Shown here piece after piece: positions 1,165 to 35,446 of a DNA stretch of 38,152 bases. The stretch comes from Prochlorococcus sp. AG-459-N19 (GTDB lineage: Bacteria > Cyanobacteriota > Cyanobacteriia > PCC-6307 > Cyanobiaceae). Both the position numbers and the translations under genes were made by a program. Location of the stretch: the NCBI GenBank assembly GCA_003209375.1, contig QCRF01000009.1:1-38152 (forward strand), written 5' to 3'. Positions within the stretch are counted from its first letter, which is position 1. Each line of letters begins with the position of its first letter. A model generated the notes under the pieces. That model was not told where the DNA came from, made no database searches, and saw nothing but the letters and a program-made list of their open reading frames with translations.

Positions 1165-2577
1165 TTAGTAAATTTTGCTAAGTAAGTGGTCTTTTTCAAA
1201 ACAAGTATTTAGTTTATTTTTAAAATCATTTAAGGCTTCTGTAGATCTTTCTTGATAAGCTTTATACCTCAATCTTTTATCTTTTATCTTCGTAGTTAGT
1301 TCAGGAACTAAACCAAATGAAGCTGGCATTGGTTGGAATTTATTCTTTTTCTGATTAGACAATATTTGATTTTTATTACTGATAAAATTTATTAGAGAAC
1401 CAATCATCGATTCCCCAGGAAAACTTACTGGTTTATTACCCTTTGCTAATAAAGATGCATTTATTCCTGCAAGCAAACCGCCCGCTGCTGCTGCTGCATA
1501 ACCTTCTGTCCCCGTAATTTGCCCCGCAGCAAAAAGATTTTCTCTTTTCATAAACTGCAATGTCGGTAAAAGTAATTTTGGAGATTCTAAAAAAGTATTT
1601 CTATGCATTACTCCAAAACGTACAAACTCAGCATTTTCTAAACCAGGAATCATCCTAAATATTCTTTTTTGCTCTGACCATTTGAGATTAGTTTGAAAAC
1701 CTACCATATTCAGTAATTTCCCTTCTAAATCTTCTTTCCTTAATTGGACAACTGCATGAGGTCGCTTTTTCAACCTATTTTCCCTATCAAATAAATCTCC
1801 CCATTTTGGATCCCACAACCCGATAGATTTTAAGGGCCCGTATCTCATTGTATCAACTCCTCTTCTAGCAATTTCTTCGATAGGTAAGCAAGCTTCAAAA
1901 AAATTTGCCGATTCTTTTTCAAAGTCTTTTAAATTAGCTTGTTCTCCTTCTATTAATTGATTTCTGAAATTGTTATATTCATCCTTTCCCATAGGGCAGT
2001 TAAGATAAGCAGGATCGCCTTTGTCATATCTACTTGCTTTAAATACAATCTCTTGATCAATAGTATCTCCATAAATAATAGGACTAGCGGCATCAAAAAA
2101 ATGACACGCATCAATGCCTGTAAAAGCTTGAATTTTATAGGATAACTGATCGGCAGTTAATGGACCAGTTGCGAGGATAGTAATATTTTCTTTGTTAGGG
2201 AGATCCAATTGCTCAAATCTCTTAATTTCAATTAAAGGATGATTAGATAAAGCTTCAGTTAAAGCGAAACTAAATTTAGATCTATCAACAGCCAAAGCGC
2301 CTCCAGCTGGCACGGCAAATTTGTCTGCTGTTTGAACTATTAATGATTTAAAAATTCTAAGTTCTTTTTGCAATAAACCTGCAGCTCTATCAGGACTTAA
2401 AGCTCCAAAACTGTTGCTACAAACCAATTCCCCAAACTCACTCGTATGATGAGCTGGAGTTGACTTGATGGGTCTCATTTCAACCAATTTAACTCGTATA
2501 CCAGAATTAGCTACCTGCCAAGCAGCTTCAGAACCTGCAAGGCCTGCTCCGATTATAATTACTTCTTTATCTATCAA
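1165..2577 (-). CDS. trmFO: tRNA (uracil-5-)-methyltransferase TrmFO
   Basis: This 470-residue flavoprotein uses methylenetetrahydrofolate to make ribothymidine at position 54 of tRNA. The N-terminal FAD motif is [16 protein letters not shown]. The family block [24 protein letters not shown] follows, and the C-terminal FAD site reads [20 protein letters not shown]. Length is normal for the family. Translation seems to begin at a TTG, with AAGGA about 12 bases upstream that overlaps the psbY stop region; no ATG fits before the FAD motif. It lies 6 bases after psbY and 23 bases before crtH on the same strand, so a psbY-trmFO-crtH transcript is likely. Confidence 0.95.
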
Positions 2578-3462: not shown

Positions 3463-3570
3463 ATGACTCCTGAAGCAGAACGTTTTAATGGTTGGGCAGC
3501 AATGTTAGGTTTCGTTGCAGCAGTTGGTGCATATGTAACAACTGGTCAAATTATTCCAGGTTGGTTTTAA
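3463..3570 (+). CDS. Short high-light-inducible (Hli) protein
   Basis: A 35-residue one-helix protein: after MTPEAE the segment ERFNGWAAMLGFVAAVGAYV is the chlorophyll-binding helix typical of Hli/SCP proteins (consensus ExxNGRxAMxGF). The usual Arg after NG is Trp here. Hli proteins sit in the thylakoid, bind chlorophyll and carotenoid, and protect photosystems during high light and other stress. It is very short, essentially the helix alone, which is common in Prochlorococcus. A rho-independent terminator follows (3615-3671), so it is a single-gene transcript. Confidence 0.88.
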   Translation: MTPEAERFNGWAAMLGFVAAVGAYVTTGQIIPGWF

Positions 3571-3980: not shown

Positions 3981-4084
3981 AAATAATATTACTTTTTTAA
4001 AGTTTATCAAATTAAAATTTTTAGCTATTTTCTCTTAATAAATTAGGATAAAAAGATTTGACTGATTTTAATTACTCTCTATAA

Positions 4085-4113
4085 AAAAAGACCTGCTAAA
4101 TGCAGGTCTTTTT
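4085..4113 (-). terminator. Terminator of porin gene 1 (possibly bidirectional)
   Basis: AAAAAGACCTGC, a TAAAT loop and GCAGGTCTTTTT form a near-perfect hairpin with T-runs in both directions, 34 bases past the porin stop. An identical copy lies behind the second porin. Confidence 0.85.
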
Positions 4114-4146
4114 AATGTGCGTAAGATTTCTAAATTAAAATTTAAT

Positions 4147-5337
4147 TTAGAAGCTAAATGATGTTTTAACCATTACACCAGTTTGATCAGGAGTTCCCGC
4201 TGTAGCTTGCTCCTTGATGAAAACAAGTGGTGTTATTGTCATACCATCATTTACTGGGTATGAATAATAAGCTTCATACATTAGCTCTTCTGTTTGGTGC
4301 TCGAGCTGACCGCCAGATGTACCTACAGCAGCGCCTAGTTCTCCAGGACCAACTTCTCCATTAACTCCAACAAAGTAGTTGATTGACTCGTCTTCTGTTG
4401 CAACAGCACCGCCAATGTCACCAATTTCATAACCAGCACTTAAATTTAAACCACTATCAAATGAGTAGTAACCGTTTAATGCTGTGTATACACTTTCGTT
4501 TATACCGTTAGTACCAGTTTCGATTGATCCATAAGTTACAGAAAGTCCGTAATTATCAGCTGAGTAAGCTACGTTAGCAGCGATTGCATCAAGAGTTTCC
4601 TTAGTCATAAGACCTTCGCCTGCAGTTCCCGCACCCGCATAACCAACGGCAGCAGTAAAGCCATTACCGAAGTCATAACTTGCTCCGAACGCAGTTCCAC
4701 CATTAGTGATTCCAGCATTTACATTACCGCAATCATCTAATGTGTTAGATGGTCCACCATAAACACAAGCTGTAGTGAATAGAGCGCTTCCGTCTGTGTT
4801 GTCACCTACGATTGCAGTCAAACCACCAATTGGGAATGTGTATGAAACACCATCAACAGTTAAGGCATCACCTGTAGCGTTTTGATCGAACTCAGCAAGT
4901 GGACCTGATGCAGAACTACTTGAAGTAGGTGCATTACCAGCATCAATAGAGATATCAAGTGAATCTTCACCAGTAAAACTAGTGTTTAGGTCAATCTGGA
5001 AACCGTAAGCAGCCTGAAGATCTTCGTCTCCATCAGTTACTCCAGTTGAAATACCCTTACCATCTAAAGCACCAATGGCGAAGTCAGCTGAGAATGATGC
5101 AGTTGTTGTTTCTGAAAAACTTCCATCATGGGAATGACTATCAACTAATCCCTCCCCGCCTGCGAGTAAAGAACTCTTTTTAAATTCATCATTATTAAAA
5201 GAGTTAGCTAAATCTATACTCTCTATGTCAGAGTATTTTGAAATATCATTGAGATTAACCTCTGTAGCATTTGCAGCTAAAGGAGATAATAATCCTAAAG
5301 CAGCTGGAGCTACCAACAAACGTTGGAAAAGCTTCAT
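4147..5337 (-). CDS. Outer-membrane porin-like protein, copy 1
   Basis: A 396-residue exported protein. The signal peptide is MKLFQRLLVAPAALGLLSPL, with cleavage likely after ANA. The mature part is Gly-, Ser- and Asp-rich with alternating hydrophobic strands, ending in Phe (KTSFSF), the usual last residue of an outer-membrane beta-barrel. It resembles the short porins of Prochlorococcus that admit small nutrients. Residues from SFSETTTASFSADF to the end are identical to copy 2. The N-terminal mature segment (about 25-90) differs: it is acidic, with a SHSHDG stretch in place of the copy 2 coiled-coil. The start is supported by GAGGA about 8 bases upstream. It has its own terminator, with a 150-base gap between the copies. 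Confidence 0.8.
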   Translation of the reverse strand: MKLFQRLLVAPAALGLLSPLAANATEVNLNDISKYSDIESIDLANSFNNDEFKKSSLLAGGEGLVDSHSHDGSFSETTTASFSADFAIGALDGKGISTGVTDGDEDLQAAYGFQIDLNTSFTGEDSLDISIDAGNAPTSSSSASGPLAEFDQNATGDALTVDGVSYTFPIGGLTAIVGDNTDGSALFTTACVYGGPSNTLDDCGNVNAGITNGGTAFGASYDFGNGFTAAVGYAGAGTAGEGLMTKETLDAIAANVAYSADNYGLSVTYGSIETGTNGINESVYTALNGYYSFDSGLNLSAGYEIGDIGGAVATEDESINYFVGVNGEVGPGELGAAVGTSGGQLEHQTEELMYEAYYSYPVNDGMTITPLVFIKEQATAGTPDQTGVMVKTSFSF

Positions 5338-5428
5338 AAATTGTCCTCACACAATTGTAGTAATCATAAAATAGATTAAATAATTGCCATTAACAAGTGG
5401 CAGTAGACAAAAAAAAAGTTGTCTAAAA

Positions 5429-5457
5429 AAAAAGACCTGCTAAATGCAGGTCTTTTT
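5429..5457 (-). terminator. Terminator of porin gene 2
   Basis: Identical to the hairpin at 4085-4113 (GACCTGC-TAAAT-GCAGGTC with T-runs). It is part of the 1,033-base exact repeat shared by the two porin genes. Confidence 0.85.
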
Positions 5458-5490
5458 AATGTGCGTAAGATTTCTAAATTAAAATTTAAT

Positions 5491-6639
5491 TTAGAAGCTA
5501 AATGATGTTTTAACCATTACACCAGTTTGATCAGGAGTTCCCGCTGTAGCTTGCTCCTTGATGAAAACAAGTGGTGTTATTGTCATACCATCATTTACTG
5601 GGTATGAATAATAAGCTTCATACATTAGCTCTTCTGTTTGGTGCTCGAGCTGACCGCCAGATGTACCTACAGCAGCGCCTAGTTCTCCAGGACCAACTTC
5701 TCCATTAACTCCAACAAAGTAGTTGATTGACTCGTCTTCTGTTGCAACAGCACCGCCAATGTCACCAATTTCATAACCAGCACTTAAATTTAAACCACTA
5801 TCAAATGAGTAGTAACCGTTTAATGCTGTGTATACACTTTCGTTTATACCGTTAGTACCAGTTTCGATTGATCCATAAGTTACAGAAAGTCCGTAATTAT
5901 CAGCTGAGTAAGCTACGTTAGCAGCGATTGCATCAAGAGTTTCCTTAGTCATAAGACCTTCGCCTGCAGTTCCCGCACCCGCATAACCAACGGCAGCAGT
6001 AAAGCCATTACCGAAGTCATAACTTGCTCCGAACGCAGTTCCACCATTAGTGATTCCAGCATTTACATTACCGCAATCATCTAATGTGTTAGATGGTCCA
6101 CCATAAACACAAGCTGTAGTGAATAGAGCGCTTCCGTCTGTGTTGTCACCTACGATTGCAGTCAAACCACCAATTGGGAATGTGTATGAAACACCATCAA
6201 CAGTTAAGGCATCACCTGTAGCGTTTTGATCGAACTCAGCAAGTGGACCTGATGCAGAACTACTTGAAGTAGGTGCATTACCAGCATCAATAGAGATATC
6301 AAGTGAATCTTCACCAGTAAAACTAGTGTTTAGGTCAATCTGGAAACCGTAAGCAGCCTGAAGATCTTCGTCTCCATCAGTTACTCCAGTTGAAATACCC
6401 TTACCATCTAAAGCACCAATGGCGAAGTCAGCTGAGAATGATGCAGTTGTTGTTTCTGAGAAACTACCTGCTTCAAAATTGTTAAGTCTTGCTTCTAAAC
6501 CGTCTACACGACTGTTAGTTACAGCAAGTTCTTCAGCAGGGTTGAAGTCATTAATAGTAACTTCATTTGCTGTAGCAGACATAGGAGCTAAGAGCCCTAG
6601 TGTCGCAGGTGCTACAAGCAAGCTTTTGAAAAGCTTCAT
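5491..6639 (-). CDS. Outer-membrane porin-like protein, copy 2
   Basis: 382 residues from the chosen ATG at 6639 (MKLFKSLLVAPATLGLLAPM signal peptide; GAGG 9 bases upstream). An in-frame extension of 21 residues further upstream lacks a signal-peptide start and was not used. After the signal comes a short helical heptad segment, NSRVDGLEARLNNFEAGSF, like the periplasmic coiled-coil of cyanobacterial porins. The barrel is identical to copy 1 and ends in Phe. Copy 2 looks like the more complete porin and copy 1 has an unusual plug or linker. The two may be differently regulated, since their upstream regions differ. Confidence 0.82.
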   Translation of the reverse strand: MKLFKSLLVAPATLGLLAPMSATANEVTINDFNPAEELAVTNSRVDGLEARLNNFEAGSFSETTTASFSADFAIGALDGKGISTGVTDGDEDLQAAYGFQIDLNTSFTGEDSLDISIDAGNAPTSSSSASGPLAEFDQNATGDALTVDGVSYTFPIGGLTAIVGDNTDGSALFTTACVYGGPSNTLDDCGNVNAGITNGGTAFGASYDFGNGFTAAVGYAGAGTAGEGLMTKETLDAIAANVAYSADNYGLSVTYGSIETGTNGINESVYTALNGYYSFDSGLNLSAGYEIGDIGGAVATEDESINYFVGVNGEVGPGELGAAVGTSGGQLEHQTEELMYEAYYSYPVNDGMTITPLVFIKEQATAGTPDQTGVMVKTSFSF

Positions 6640-6819
6640 AAATTTCCTCACACGAAATTTAAAGTACACCTCAAGATAGTGTATTAAGGCATGCAAAATC
6701 AAGTATCAACGACTACATTTTTGAATAATTTGTGCCACTTTCTAAACCTATACAATCTTTTTTATCTACAATCAATCAATTAATTTTGTTTTTCGAATAA
6801 AAAAATTAATTTTAGGAAT

Positions 6820-7586: not shown

Positions 7587-8099
7587 TTAAAAAGTTATAG
7601 ATGATTCAATAGGATAATTTAGTTTTAATTTGCCTTCCAATTTCATTAACTCAACAACAACTAGAACTCCTATGACTTTTTTATTGTTACTCTCAAGAAT
7701 CTTCGAAACACAATTGACCGTTCCGCCAGTAGCTAATAAATCATCAACAATGGCAAAAGAGCTATATTTCTGTAGGGCCTTTTTTTGAATAGAAAGTGTA
7801 TTTTCACCATATTCTAAGCTGTAGTTCTTTTCAACAAGTTCTCCTGGGAGCTTCCCGGGTTTTCTTGCAACGATCATTGGCTTTGAAACTTGCAAAGAGA
7901 TCGCAGAACCAAAAATAAATCCTCTAGCATCTATTGAAATTATCGCTTCCGCATTTTTTATAATTTGACTAGAAGACATCTTTAAAATAAGTTCCTTGAA
8001 TATTCTTGGTTCCTGAATAATTCCAAGAACATCTTTGAACTCAACCCCTTTTTTTGGATAATCTTTGTAATTATCAATAAATTCTTTAAGACTCTTCAT
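7587..8099 (-). CDS. apt: Adenine phosphoribosyltransferase
   Basis: 170 residues, the usual length. It makes AMP from adenine and PRPP in purine salvage in the cytosol. The PRPP-binding loop is FAIVDDLLATGGTV (about residues 115-128). Upstream conserved parts are KGVEFKDVLGII (18-29), SIDARGFIFGSAIS (55-68) and ARKPGKLPGE (78-87). It faces away from the tRNA-Pro array and marks the last clearly core gene before the island-like region. Confidence 0.95.
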   Translation of the reverse strand: MKSLKEFIDNYKDYPKKGVEFKDVLGIIQEPRIFKELILKMSSSQIIKNAEAIISIDARGFIFGSAISLQVSKPMIVARKPGKLPGELVEKNYSLEYGENTLSIQKKALQKYSSFAIVDDLLATGGTVNCVSKILESNNKKVIGVLVVVELMKLEGKLKLNYPIESSITF

Positions 8100-8430: not shown

Positions 8431-8504
8431 CGGGGCGTGGCGCAGCTTGGTAGCGCGGGTGCTTTGGGAGCACTAGGTCGCAGGTTCGAATCCTGTCGCC
8501 CCGA
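8431..8504 (+). tRNA. tRNA-Pro (anticodon UGG), intact integration target
   Basis: A 74-nt cloverleaf: CGGGGCG (8431-8437) pairs with CGCCCCG (8497-8503), discriminator A. The anticodon loop TTTGGGA holds UGG and the T arm is GCAGG-TTCGAAT-CCTGT. Its 3' half from the anticodon stem, plus trailing sequence to 8528, recurs three more times downstream, as expected of a tRNA used as an attachment site by a tyrosine recombinase. The intact gene sits at the left end and all partial copies lie to its right in the same orientation. Confidence 0.97.
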
Positions 8505-8526
8505 CTCTTAAAAACCAAGTCATACT

Positions 8527-8553
8527 AGAGAGTTACCCAAACTCTCTTTTTTT
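8527..8553 (+). terminator. tRNA-Pro terminator
   Basis: AGAGAGTT (8527-8534) pairs with AACTCTCT (8540-8547), then a T-run. Equivalent hairpins with different stem sequences follow each downstream tRNA fragment. Confidence 0.85.
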
Positions 8554-8576
8554 ATGTTTATGTCTCAAAGTGAGAA

Positions 8577-8598
8577 AGGGGAGCTGTAGGGGGAGCTC
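8577..8598. repeat. Unit A left subterminal tandem repeat
   Basis: GGGGAGCT occurs twice at 12-base spacing (8578-8585 and 8590-8597), 49 bases after the attachment core, with GTCTCA just before (8562-8567). The same arrangement recurs at the right end (10504-10526) and in modified form in unit B. Confidence 0.7.
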
Positions 8599-8715
8599 AT
8601 AGGATGTACTTTGATGTATTTAGTGCCTTTATATTTTCGTTTACTTAGAAATTCAGTAAAAAAACTAAGATTAGGTGTAATTTAGATTCATAAATATTTT
8701 TAGACTAAAAATGCA

Positions 8716-10398
8716 ATGAGACAGAATTTATCTATCTCAAAATGGCTTGAAAACAAATTTGGAGAGAATATTCCTAATGATTGCTTGGATGCTCATAAAG
8801 AAAATTTTTTATCTCTACTACCTCCAGAACTAATTAATTCCTACAAACAGGATTTAGAATTTCCAATGCCATTATTTTTACCTAACACAAAACTATATGA
8901 AATAGGTATTGAATATCAACAGTTGGCAGAAGCAGAGATTAAAAAAAAAGAGAGTGATATAGAGCTAGGCAATGTAAATGAGGAAGATATTGACATAACT
9001 GATATTGCACTTCTAACAAGTGTAAGCAATTCGATTATAAACAGTACAAACTTTTATCCAGATTTTGATTATTTAAGTAAAGAAATAATTGAAGAACTAA
9101 AAAAAGAAGATAGTCAAAAAAGTTGGGAAGAATCAATGGGGAAATATGGATTTAATGGTAATTGGGAAGAGCTATATAATCTTTTTTCACCAGTTGGATT
9201 AATGAATGCATATACCTGGATGTCATCTATCGATATTAGTGCCACGGATGATAGTAGTTCAGAAGAAAAAGAATATGTCTTTGGAGAACTATTCAAAGGA
9301 AATGCTCCAGAATGGAAAGTTTATATTCCTGTTACTATATTCAGCCGATATAAAACTAACGATCAAATAAGTAAGAAATTAAAAGATTATCAATTAGTAA
9401 ATGAGATAATCAAAGAATCTGGAATAACATTCTCTTATAATGTAGAGATGGAAAATAACACAGAAGATAAAAATAAAAATCCTCAGGGTAAAAATTGGAA
9501 TATCTTCAAGAAGATTGGTGAAAATAGAAAAAGGATAGCCGAAGAAAAAGAAGCATTACTTAAAAAATCGATTGAAGAAAAAAAATTGAAAAAAGAAAAA
9601 GAGGAAAATGCTGCTAAGCAAAAAGCAGAATCTTGGTCTGAGCAAATAATTAAACTTATTACTGATAATAAAGATGCTATTTATAAAGATTATCAAAATA
9701 GCCAATATACAGATCAATATGGCAATGAAGAAAGTGATTTCTTTGATTTTGAAGAGCTTTATGAATTAGAAGATCTTTATGGCTTGAGTAATTATGAATT
9801 TCAAGATGAAATCGATAATAAACTATCTTCAGGATTCAATTATTTTTTTAAAAGTGTAATCCTAAGAGATATTGAATTTAATGACTTTATAGATGGTTGG
9901 AAGGCTTATGAAAAAATCTATTCGCCTAGAGACAAAGATGGAAAACCTTCCACCTGGCAATCTTTATTAGTTATAAAATGGCTTTTTGAATATAGTATCT
10001 TTCCTATTGCAAAAGCTGTTGATGAATACAACCAAAAGAAACTAGATGCAGGATTTGATGATGATATGAGCGGAGAAGAATTTGAAACATATTGTGCAAA
10101 TATTCTTATTGAGGCTGGGTGGAATGTAGAACAAACTCCTTCAACAAATGATCAAGGAACAGACCTAATCGCTTATGTAGAGGATTATAAAGTTTGCATT
10201 CAATGTAAAAAGTACTCTAATCCAGTAGGGAATAAGGCTGTACAAGAAATTATTGCCGGGACACTGTTTTATCAAGGTACTCATTCAGTTGTGGTTTCAA
10301 ATGCGGGCTTTACAAAATCTGCAATTTCTTTAGCAAAATCCAGCAATGTAATACTTTTGAATGACTCTGAATTAGAAGAATTAGAAAACTTTATTTAA
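8716..10398 (+). CDS. Mrr-like restriction endonuclease domain protein
   Basis: 560 residues. Residues 1-260 are unrecognised and acidic. Residues 260-305 form a Lys/Glu-rich helix, probably a coiled coil. Residues 305-450 are helical and unrecognised. The last 110 residues form a PD-(D/E)xK fold of the Mrr_cat type: FETYCANILIEAGWNVE, then NDQGTDLIAYVEDYKVCIQC, with D483, Q496 and K498 as the likely D and QxK active-site residues. Such enzymes cut foreign, often methylated, DNA, so it is a candidate solo defence gene. Its specificity could lie in the unknown N-terminal part. It is the only gene of unit A and has no methylase partner. The 5' spacer contains the subterminal repeats. Confidence 0.82.
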   Translation: MRQNLSISKWLENKFGENIPNDCLDAHKENFLSLLPPELINSYKQDLEFPMPLFLPNTKLYEIGIEYQQLAEAEIKKKESDIELGNVNEEDIDITDIALLTSVSNSIINSTNFYPDFDYLSKEIIEELKKEDSQKSWEESMGKYGFNGNWEELYNLFSPVGLMNAYTWMSSIDISATDDSSSEEKEYVFGELFKGNAPEWKVYIPVTIFSRYKTNDQISKKLKDYQLVNEIIKESGITFSYNVEMENNTEDKNKNPQGKNWNIFKKIGENRKRIAEEKEALLKKSIEEKKLKKEKEENAAKQKAESWSEQIIKLITDNKDAIYKDYQNSQYTDQYGNEESDFFDFEELYELEDLYGLSNYEFQDEIDNKLSSGFNYFFKSVILRDIEFNDFIDGWKAYEKIYSPRDKDGKPSTWQSLLVIKWLFEYSIFPIAKAVDEYNQKKLDAGFDDDMSGEEFETYCANILIEAGWNVEQTPSTNDQGTDLIAYVEDYKVCIQCKKYSNPVGNKAVQEIIAGTLFYQGTHSVVVSNAGFTKSAISLAKSSNVILLNDSELEELENFI

Positions 10399-10470
10399 TC
10401 TATTACTTAACAAAACTACTCTTAGAAAAATTCCTTAAAGATTTTTATGAATAAGAACTTTTTTGTATAG

Positions 10471-10501
10471 GCGACCTACAAAGTCAATGGCACTAGGTCG
10501 C
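10471..10501. repeat. Inverted repeat with attachment-core relic
   Basis: GCGACCTA (10471-10478) and TAGGTCGC (10494-10501) could form an 8-bp stem with a 15-base loop. The right side, GCACTAGGTCGC (10490-10501), equals 12 bases of tRNA-Pro (8470-8481). It could act as the nuclease gene's terminator or be a leftover of an older junction. Confidence 0.5.
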
Positions 10502-10503
10502 TC

Positions 10504-10592
10504 AGGGGGGAGCTAGAGGGGGAGCTAGGGTCACATATTAAGTATATAAATGTATATACTTTGTACGATATTGAGTCTCAAATTAGTTCCAC
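10504..10592. repeat. Unit A right subterminal repeats
   Basis: GGGGAGCT twice with 12-base spacing (AGCT at 10511-10514 and 10523-10526), then GTCTCAAATTAGTTCCAC at 10575-10592. The G-rich pair ends 128 bases, and the GTCTCA box begins 79 bases, before the next core copy; unit B has almost the same distances. Confidence 0.7.
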
Positions 10593-10653
10593 TCACTTGG
10601 TTACAACCTAGTCATAGCTTGATTTTATTCAATAATCTCAAATGATCAAAGGA

Positions 10654-10723
10654 GTGCTTTGGGAGCACTAGGTCGCAGGTTCGAATCCTGTCGCCCCGAC
10701 TCTTAAAAACCAAGTCATACTAG
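10654..10723 (+). repeat. tRNA-Pro 3' fragment, copy 2 (attachment core)
   Basis: Exact 70-base copy of 8459-8528: anticodon arm, T arm, 3' acceptor strand and the trailer up to the terminator. The 5' half is replaced by unrelated DNA, so no functional tRNA can form. Confidence 0.93.
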
Positions 10724-10746
10724 CGAGTCTCCCAACTCGCTTTTTT
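10723..10746 (+). terminator. Terminator carried by attachment copy 2
   Basis: GCGAGT (10723-10728) pairs with ACTCGC (10735-10740) and a T-run follows. The structure matches the tRNA-Pro terminator while the stem sequence differs on both sides. Confidence 0.75.
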
Positions 10747-14297: not shown

Positions 14298-14341
14298 AAA
14301 AAAGGAGCTAATTGCCCCTTATTTTAGATCGACTGTCAATC
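14298..14341 (-). promoter_or_regulatory. Shared promoter/hairpin leader, site 1
   Basis: On the minus strand: TTGACAGTCGATCTAAAAT, then AAGGGGC-AATTA-GCTCCTT and a T-run ending at an ATG (14296). TAAAAT fits a -10 element. Near-identical copies precede the genes at 16335 and 19190. Confidence 0.6.
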
Positions 14342-14478: not shown

Positions 14479-14538
14479 CATCTATAGTTAGTCTAGGCTA
14501 TAACTAAAGTCTTAAGGTTTTCTTAAAAATAACGCCCA

Positions 14539-14608
14539 GTGCTTTGGGAGCACTAGGTCGCAGGTTTGAATCCTGTCGCCCCGACTCTTAAAAACCAATT
14601 TATACTAG
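14539..14608 (+). repeat. tRNA-Pro 3' fragment, copy 3 (attachment core)
   Basis: Same 70-base core as copy 2 with three or so changes (T for C in the T loop at 14566; AATTTA for AAGTCA near the end). Confidence 0.9.
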
Positions 14609-16335: not shown

Positions 16336-16380
16336 AAAAAAAGAGCTAGTTGTCCTTAATTTTAGATCGACTGTCAATCA
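16336..16380 (-). promoter_or_regulatory. Shared promoter/hairpin leader, site 2
   Basis: TTGACAGTCGATCTAAAAT on the minus strand, then a weaker hairpin AAGGAC-AACTA-GCTCTT, T-run, ATG at 16335. Same arrangement as sites at 14298 and 19191. Confidence 0.6.
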
Positions 16381-18340: not shown

Positions 18341-18460
18341 TTGAGGCCAAACCTCGTCAGCACAATCTACTTTTGCTGCAAGAGATAAATTGATTCTATA
18401 TAGTTGCGAATCAATTTAATAACCCTTTCAGTACTTGGAATTTCTGGAAGGGTTTCTTGT
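18341..18460 (+). ncRNA. Candidate small RNA with three hairpins
   Basis: No ORF. In order: GAGG-CCAAA-CCTC (18343-18355), a single-stranded stretch, AAATTGATTC (18387-18396) pairing with GAATCAATTT (18408-18417), and AACCCTT (18421-18427) pairing with AAGGGTT (18448-18454) as a terminator-like hairpin followed by TCTTGTT. CTATAAG just before (about 18330-18336) fits a -10 element. Strand is inferred from this layout. The rest of the gap (18461-18689) shows nothing clear. Confidence 0.5.
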
Positions 18461-19190: not shown

Positions 19191-19236
19191 TAAAAAAAGG
19201 AGCTAATTGCCCCTTATTTTAGATCGACTGTCAATC
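19191..19236 (-). promoter_or_regulatory. Shared promoter/hairpin leader, site 3
   Basis: TTGACAGTCGATCTAAAAT, AAGGGGC-AATTA-GCTCCTT and T-run on the minus strand, ending one base before ATG 19190. Almost identical to site 1 (14298). Confidence 0.65.
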
Positions 19237-33330: not shown

Positions 33331-33742
33331 AAATAAATAAAAATAAATAAAAATTATAATGTATAAAATTGAATAAATTTACTGCTATGTACTGCGGAAA
33401 TAGAGGGAGGGGTGCAATTCAAAAAAAGATAAAATAGTTTAACTTTTTCGCATTATTTTTGATCAAACTGAAAAAAATACTAGTCAATAATTAAGTATTT
33501 GCAATGGTTATTAATTAAAAAATTGATATGAAGGCTAAGTGCTTTGTTTATTACTAAAGTCTAAATATTTTTCTTAAGAAAAATTTTACTGCGGAACCTT
33601 TTTTAATGAAGTATTAAAATTTAACTTATATTTAATCTCGAACGTATCGGCAAAAACCATCCCTAATAGAAACTATATAAAATACATTTAGATGTTTTAT
33701 TTAAAGAAATTAGAACGCCTACAAGAATAGATAGCAAATTTG
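33331..33742. other. Gap of 412 bases between transporter and selO
   Basis: AT-rich, with tandem AAATAAAT at the start. TACTGCGGAA occurs twice (about 33383 and 33588). No ORF or strong hairpin found. It presumably holds the selO promoter. Confidence 0.35.
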
Positions 33743-35446
33743 ATGTCAACCAAATCTGATTCATTAAAAGGAAAGCTTACAGAAAATTTTTATGAATTTT
33801 CTCTACTATCTGACTATTCTTTTATGAATTCTCTTAAAGCAGATCCTAAATCAACAAAAGATGGAAATGATCATAAGCCGCGTTCAGTATATTCAGGTCA
33901 TTACGTACCAGTTGTTCCAACTGCTATTCCAGATCCAGAATATATTTCCCATAGCAACAAACTTTTTAAAGAACTAGGGCTAAGCTCAGATCTTACTAAA
34001 GACAAAAATTTTTGTCGTTTTTTCTCAGGTGATATTTCTGTTGCTAAATATCCAATGAGTCCTGTTGGTTGGGCAACAGGTTATGCATTATCAATTTACG
34101 GGACTGAATATACCCAGCAATGTCCTTTTGGAACTGGTAATGGTTATGGCGATGGCAGAGCAATTTCTGTTTTTGAAGGTTTATTCAATGGGAAAAGAAT
34201 GGAAATGCAACTTAAAGGAGGAGGTCCAACTCCCTATTGTCGTGGAGCAGATGGTAGAGCTGTCTTAAGGTCTAGCGTACGAGAATTTCTCGCACAGGAA
34301 TTAATGAATGCCTTGGGAATCCCTACCTCAAGATCTTTAACACTTTATGTCTCACGTTCAGAAATAGTTAGAAGACCGTGGTATTCCAAAGGGTCCAGAT
34401 ATTTTGAACCTGATATCATGATTGACAATCAAGCGGCAATTACTACGAGAGTCGCTTCATCTTTTCTACGTGTAGGCCAGATTGAACTTTTTGCAAGACG
34501 AGTTCGTAATAATACGCATGATCAGGCCCTCAATGAACTAAAAATGATAGTTCAACATCTAATTGATAGAAATTATAAAGATGAAATTGAATATGAGATT
34601 TCAATTGAAAGTAAAGTAATAAAACTGGCTTCTTTATACAGATCAAGACTTATATCACTTATAGCCAACTGGATGAGAGTTGGTTATTGCCAGGGTAATT
34701 TCAATAGTGATAATTGTGCTGCTGGAGGTTATACCTTGGATTATGGCCCCTTTGGATTCTGTGAATTATTTGATCCAAGATTTCAGCCATGGACAGGGGG
34801 AGGTGAACATTTCTCATTTTTTAACCAGCCTTCTGCAGCGGCAATCAACTTTAAAACATTCTGTTCATCTCTTAGTCCGTTACTTTCACAAAGCAAACAA
34901 GATCAAGAAAAGTTAGATCAAATCGAAAAAGACTTTTCTGAATTAATGAATAAGGAATTGATGAAAATGTGGGCAAACAAGCTTGGCTTAGAACATTACA
35001 ACGAAACTCTAATAAATGAATTTTTTAATCTCATGGTCATTTCAAGAGCAGACTATACAATTTTGTTCCGTAAACTATCTGAAATACCTGATAACTTAGA
35101 TTTTTTAAAAAACTGTTTCTATTTGCCAATTAATGACGAGCTCAATAATAGGTGGAAAGTATGGCTTCAAAACTGGCAATCAATCTTGAAGAAAGAGGGA
35201 AATATTAAAGCGAAATCAGCATCAATGAAATCCCTTAATCCAGTCTATACTTGGCGCGAATGGATGGTCGTTCCCGCATATGAAGAAGCTGAAAAAGGAA
35301 ATTACAAAAAAATTAAAGAGTTACAGGATGTCTTTAGCAATCCATATATAGAACAATCCTCAGAAATAGATCAAAAATATAATCGACTAAAGCCAAGCCA
35401 GTATTTTAACTATGGAGGAGTATCTCACTACAGCTGTTCTTCATAA
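33743..35446 (+). CDS. selO: Protein adenylyltransferase SelO
   Basis: 567 residues, a pseudokinase-fold enzyme that transfers AMP to proteins in the redox response. Seen: HYVPVVPTAIPDPEYISHSN near the start, KGGGPTPYCRGADGRAVLRS (about 155-175) with the conserved GxxxPYxRGxDGRAVLR, SVREFLAQELMNALGIPTSR, and NSDNCAAGGYTLDYGPFGFC (about 320-340) carrying the metal-binding N/D. Start at the ATG just after a TTG (33740). Members that replace GAGPTPYSR by GGGPTPYCR occur in cyanobacteria. Confidence 0.92.
   Translation: MSTKSDSLKGKLTENFYEFSLLSDYSFMNSLKADPKSTKDGNDHKPRSVYSGHYVPVVPTAIPDPEYISHSNKLFKELGLSSDLTKDKNFCRFFSGDISVAKYPMSPVGWATGYALSIYGTEYTQQCPFGTGNGYGDGRAISVFEGLFNGKRMEMQLKGGGPTPYCRGADGRAVLRSSVREFLAQELMNALGIPTSRSLTLYVSRSEIVRRPWYSKGSRYFEPDIMIDNQAAITTRVASSFLRVGQIELFARRVRNNTHDQALNELKMIVQHLIDRNYKDEIEYEISIESKVIKLASLYRSRLISLIANWMRVGYCQGNFNSDNCAAGGYTLDYGPFGFCELFDPRFQPWTGGGEHFSFFNQPSAAAINFKTFCSSLSPLLSQSKQDQEKLDQIEKDFSELMNKELMKMWANKLGLEHYNETLINEFFNLMVISRADYTILFRKLSEIPDNLDFLKNCFYLPINDELNNRWKVWLQNWQSILKKEGNIKAKSASMKSLNPVYTWREWMVVPAYEEAEKGNYKKIKELQDVFSNPYIEQSSEIDQKYNRLKPSQYFNYGGVSHYSCSS

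Follow-up and report, generated by a model that had tools for sequence, protein, structure and literature searches.

Two neighbouring porin genes of Prochlorococcus sp. AG-459-N19 were found to share one barrel while carrying different heads, and comparison across the genus makes it very probable that this tandem som pair undergoes recurrent, domain-limited concerted evolution by gene conversion between direct repeats. The pair lies in a window of 38,152 nucleotides (31% GC) at the start of contig 9 (QCRF01000009.1) of a 1.33 Mb assembly in 51 contigs that is 83% complete. The first-pass annotation had placed the pair at 4083-6639, a span that proved exact, and had read it as gene conversion with the heads kept apart. 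Identities, trees and tract edges strongly support that reading, with a pattern that extends across the genus.

An exact repeat behind two different heads

A repeat search in the window returned an exact direct repeat of 1,033 nt (4083-5115 and 5427-6459, offset 1,344), by far the longest repeat present; the runner-up exact repeat measured 42 nt. As annotated, both copies comprise barrel, stop codon and terminator, the copy at 5427-6459 belonging to the upstream porin gene with head 1 (P0002, 382 aa, 5491-6639) and the copy at 4083-5115 to the downstream gene with head 2 (P0001, 396 aa, 4147-5337), all on the minus strand. The terminators of the head-1 gene (5427-5453) and of the head-2 gene (4083-4109) lie within the repeat and are identical (AGACCTGC-ATTTA-GCAGGTCT followed by a T-run). 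Heads and barrels meet at the residues FSETT, and the heads are kept by type across genomes. Head 1 (6463-6639, 59 aa) consists of a signal peptide and a segment running from NEVTINDF to RVDGLEARLNNFEAGS, and head 2 (5119-5337, 73 aa) of a signal peptide and an acidic segment ending in LLAGGEGLVDSHSHDGS. The reported difference between heads and promoters was confirmed, with 47% protein identity between the heads and 82% DNA identity over the 100 nt upstream. The signal peptides had been called different as well; over the first ~20 residues they do differ, yet they are clearly homologous.

On one side the pair is flanked by trmFO (1165-2577, minus strand), a tRNA-Lys and an hli-like gene of 35 aa recognised from its sequence (3463-3570, plus strand), and on the other side by apt (7587-8099, minus strand). 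The annotations of trmFO and apt come from NCBIfam, and the gene order recurs in other genomes. One further relative is encoded on a different contig of the source genome (32% identical).

Judged by locus and sequence, the likely counterpart of the pair is the MED4 som pair PMM1119/PMM1121 (som-1/som-2), which shares the position between trmFO and apt, the heads and the Yfr1 target sites. The MED4 genes are reported to derive from a duplication and to be regulated targets of Yfr1, a small RNA (PMC6778093), and both are strongly transcribed (PMC3898218); neither of these two papers describes barrels homogenised behind distinct heads. In both porin genes of the window the ribosome-binding site carries GTGTGAGG, complementary to the Yfr1 motif, at 6646-6653 for head 1 and at 5345-5352 for head 2 (minus strand). 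This complement covers the ribosome-binding site in 74 of the 76 related genes examined, including both porins of the window, and marks the two as predicted Yfr1 targets, the regulation itself having been demonstrated only in MED4 and in an E. coli reporter (PMC6778093).

Both porins matched Pfam PF04966 (OprB), although over 30 residues only and with scores on either side of the gathering cut-off of 22.9 bits (25.7 bits for P0002, 22.7 bits for P0001). Scores against NCBIfam NF033921, the SomB-type cyanobacterial porins, were 43 and 67 bits with a cut-off of 100, and the som pair thus appears related to this model yet is not filed under it. A sequence search of solved structures gave no real relative. 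AlphaFold modelled both proteins as 16-strand beta barrels with short periplasmic turns and long outer loops, and Foldseek matched these models to OmpF, OprB and the Rhodopseudomonas blastica porin (E about 1e-12), so that both genes are predicted to encode general porins of the 16-strand fold. The first strand starts ~3 residues past the tract edge in the models.

Both heads were modelled with pLDDT below 50. The coiled-coil label of head 1 is putative and draws on its resemblance to a coiled-coil-like segment of another porin, one with a long head. Head 2 had been described as acidic and histidine-containing, which holds in this genome (DSHSHDG), but the histidines are not conserved in others. 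Compared by eye with the long head, head 1 is similar to its coiled-coil-like end and head 2 to its AGGEGL part. Because each resembles a different part, the two may be complementary truncations of the long head; automatic alignment of both heads to it did not resolve an origin by truncation.

Barrels and heads across the genus

We compared the porin loci of 40 other species-level genomes, in almost all of which the two head types were recognisable. Among 31 head-1/head-2 pairs, barrel DNA identity within a genome had a median of 99.9%, with 15 pairs exact and 23 at 99% or more; these pairs were taken from a similarity-ranked list, which biases the counts toward homogenised pairs. Between genomes the barrels were 55-58% identical in protein and about 76% in DNA. 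Barrels of paralogues within a genome are therefore more alike than those of orthologues between genomes. The heads behaved in the opposite way, with 47% identity within a genome and, between genomes, 82-83% for head 1 and 67% for head 2. The suggested comparison of strains for head and barrel exchange thus yielded barrels matched within genomes and heads kept by type. In five lineages the two barrels remain different (L043, L044, L045, L063 and L065), and two of these carry a distant barrel behind head 2 that is only 38% (L063) and 34% (L065) identical to their own head-1 barrel.

Independently of the similarity ranking, we chose 19 near-complete genomes (seven in a single contig and twelve in 2-5 contigs). 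Homogenised barrels were read directly in four of these and deduced from contig breaks in nine; in the rest the barrels were different, the gene was single or the pair was not found.

The two gene parts gave different trees. In the head tree the two types separate by a single change (support 99). The barrel tree requires 30 changes of head label, of which well-supported branches force 29, and groups 26 of the 31 pairs as sisters. Taken together, the trees indicate that homogenisation happened separately in many lineages, or continuously in most. Head 2 is orthologous across genomes, as are its promoter and its position with head 1 on one side and hli on the other.

The identical tract has sharp edges. 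Exact identity begins between -7 and +8 nt from the first barrel codon (FSETT) and ends 45-90 nt past the stop codon in nearly all pairs, near the end of the terminator, with earlier ends at 27 nt (L042) and 1 nt (L075). Averaged over 23 pairs, identity rose from 0.43 (12-7 nt ahead of the boundary) through 0.72 (final 6 nt) to 0.96 beyond it. The core barrel held nine differences in 21,402 sites, and in the stretch 50-90 nt past the stop codon identity dropped from 0.94 to 0.38. Terminator stems vary among lineages yet match within most pairs, which argues for copying rather than conservation. The flanks keep their orthologous history at these edges, as gene conversion would leave it.

The barrel is also the fast-evolving part. 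Its protein identity between genomes (57%) is below that of TrmFO (87%), Apt (69%) and head 1. Entropy per site was 1.78 bits in predicted extracellular loops and 1.07 bits in strands (p 3e-11), loop 3 being a conserved exception among the loops. Simple counting estimates for the four closest comparisons of homogenised lineages gave barrel dN/dS values of 0.46 (L040/L046), 0.52 (L038/L041), 0.33 (L039/L041) and 0.54 (L072/L073), against 0.07-0.14 for trmFO in the same few pairs. In L043/L045, whose two barrels have stayed different, the barrel value was 0.095. In all four comparisons barrel dS was below trmFO dS, which suggests that barrels move between lineages too. The hypervariable loops and raised dN/dS are consistent with surface selection, whatever exerts it; phages or grazers may plausibly favour a shared surface type.

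Several loci depart from the common arrangement. Head 1 is found on both copies in L050 and L058. In L061 (1971-4503) both copies carry a fused head with a head-1 start and a head-2 end, one of them frameshifted in the head, which may be an assembly effect. In some lineages a TPR/sulfotransferase gene lies between the porins and the barrels are still homogenised (e.g. L074:4976-6820).

The long-head porin lies ~10 kb from the pair in G171. We considered whether it shares the barrel of the pair and rejected this, as it is only 57-75% identical to the pair of its own genome; long-head porins of different genomes are 68-91% alike, with L177 and L182 as outliers. The long-head porin of G052 has taken head 1, with 160 of 176 head positions identical, versus 69% in the barrel, and most of the differences fall in the first 40 nt. 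Head 1 was observed on porins at the separate long-head locus in L163 (2658-3797) and L067 (3057-4202). The occurrence of head 1 at this locus points to occasional exchange between distant porin loci. Phage records screened as a barrel source gave only a partial match of 34% to a Synechococcus phage porin, and the best sequence matches in other genera of the family reached 37-38%. With regard to antigenic variation, in which silent donors feed an expressed copy, both porin genes are intact with ribosome-binding sites and the locus showed no array of silent cassettes.

Probable conversion and its alternatives

Homologous conversion between the direct repeats, a single ordinary process able to account for all these features, would overwrite the barrel and terminator of one copy with those of the other, repeatedly and in separate lineages, and the converted tract would reach the limits of homology, i.e. 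the head/barrel junction on one side and the terminator end on the other. Heads and promoters would stay distinct because their sequences have diverged and, presumably, because selection keeps them. The molecular event would be a RecA-type conversion or an unequal exchange between the repeats, and unequal exchange would also yield single-copy and double-head-1 loci. The pattern fits conversion but does not distinguish it from a replacement of both copies by imported DNA. Neither site-specific recombination nor a shufflon found any support, as the repeats are direct and the tract begins and ends where homology does.

The assembly of the window is probably based on short reads, from which a tandem loop may be resolved with a single consensus used for both copies. 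The exact identity in this cell could therefore hide a few differences, and in a 51-contig assembly one real barrel, or two diverged barrels, might have been written out twice. Two copies are nevertheless required, because the segment of head 2 and spacer has barrel on both sides and the order is shared with G171. In this single-contig genome trmFO, hli, the head-2 gene and the head-1 gene follow each other in the same order and the barrels are identical. Among the other single-contig genomes the barrels were identical in G108, 99.8% identical in G040 and 99.3% in G015, whereas G182 and G021 keep different barrels and G049 showed only one head-1 gene at the locus. In lineages L071-L075 the copies are 3.2 kb apart with a gene between them and still match. 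Nine of the twelve near-complete genomes in 2-5 contigs have a contig end 121-282 nt past the head-1 boundary, inside the barrel, where 0.007 ends are expected by chance (P about 2e-25), and G041 and G184 each have a further contig that ends within the terminator and 3' end of a porin, with hli nearby. A short-read assembler that meets a near-exact repeat stops in this way, and two real copies predict such breaks; for these nine genomes we infer homogenisation from the breaks rather than reading it. Single-cell contigs of L139, L141, L143 and L144 also stop just past the boundary. Mis-assembly is unlikely as a general cause because single-contig genomes are homogenised as well, and we give very little credence to an artefact in which the repeat was merely written twice.

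Separate recent duplications of the whole gene in each lineage would also produce matched barrels, and the double head 1 of L050 and L058 indicates that whole-gene copying occurs. The head tree disfavours this origin, as does the orthology of head 2 together with its promoter and location. Duplication would moreover need an in-frame landing at the same junction ~26 times, and we regard such an origin as extremely improbable.

Conversion might be real but neutral, close and similar direct repeats recombining often while selection only keeps the two heads. This would agree with a tract that fills the entire homologous stretch including the non-coding terminator, and with the more distant long-head porin keeping its own barrel, as expected if proximity sets the rate. 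The low conservation of the barrel relative to TrmFO, Apt and head 1, its variation in extracellular loops and its raised dN/dS relative to trmFO are less easily accommodated, although they fit selection on the surface and not specifically a matching of copies. We rate neutral conversion at nearly even chances. Alternatively, matched barrels might themselves be selected if escape from phages or grazers succeeds only when both highly expressed porins carry the new surface. Hypervariable loops, the raised dN/dS, the strong expression of both MED4 copies (PMC3898218) and the low barrel dN/dS of the lineages with two different barrels would agree with this. The last contrast rests on a single lineage pair, however, several lineages live with unmatched pairs and no phage using these porins was identified, which leaves selected matching a rather doubtful explanation. 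A same-surface function is attractive but no more likely than neutral conversion through proximity. Should such a function exist, its payoff may be, as a weaker reading, matched extracellular loops on both porins of a cell. Tentatively, the locus might then act as a device for one surface per cell, in which a new barrel, mutated or imported from another lineage, is spread by conversion to both highly expressed porins and completes a receptor change that the second copy would otherwise hide. Two distinct regulatory or anchoring roles would be left to the heads and promoters.

Related systems and other features of the window

Porins provide main entry routes through the outer membrane and often serve as phage receptors. 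The som locus belongs to an extremely abundant ocean phototroph, and its pore domain is homogenised repeatedly behind two heads that remain separate across a genus; it offers a natural experiment on surface change where receptors are duplicated. Since assemblies from short reads or single cells break or collapse here, the porins of Prochlorococcus are probably under-counted and their diversity underestimated. In Helicobacter pylori, the paralogous outer-membrane proteins babA/babB are homogenised in one part and distinct in the other, as is the som pair; there the shared ends are conserved and the distinct part differs, while in the som pair the shared part is the surface-exposed, fast-evolving barrel. 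The Brucella genes omp2a/omp2b resemble the som pair as neighbouring porin genes with gene conversion up to complete homogenisation and effects on surface loops (PMC7050475). They are oppositely oriented, their conversion tracts are segmental and differ in position, and expression is reported for omp2b only, whereas the som genes are direct repeats with fixed tract edges and heads kept apart. While porin gene conversion is thus known from Brucella, a literature search of mostly non-subscription papers found no earlier description of gene conversion for these porin genes.

The 3' end and flank of a tRNA-Pro (8431-8505) are copied at 10654-10735 (82 nt, 96%). Between the tRNA and its partial copy lies a gene of 560 aa (8716-10398) whose product ends in a restriction endonuclease domain of the Mrr type (PF04471, E 2e-24), and from its sequence the stretch 8431-10735 looks like a small element inserted at the tRNA. 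Another piece of the same tRNA-Pro 3' end at 14538-14598 suggests a second insertion at the same attachment site. The 42-nt exact repeat (14298-14339 and 19193-19234, with a partial third copy at 16359) lies in a stretch of short genes. The window further encodes a YdiU/SelO-like protein with scores below the NCBIfam cut-offs (33740-35446) and the cyanobacterial sRNA Yfr13 (18343-18440; Rfam, 95.6 bits).
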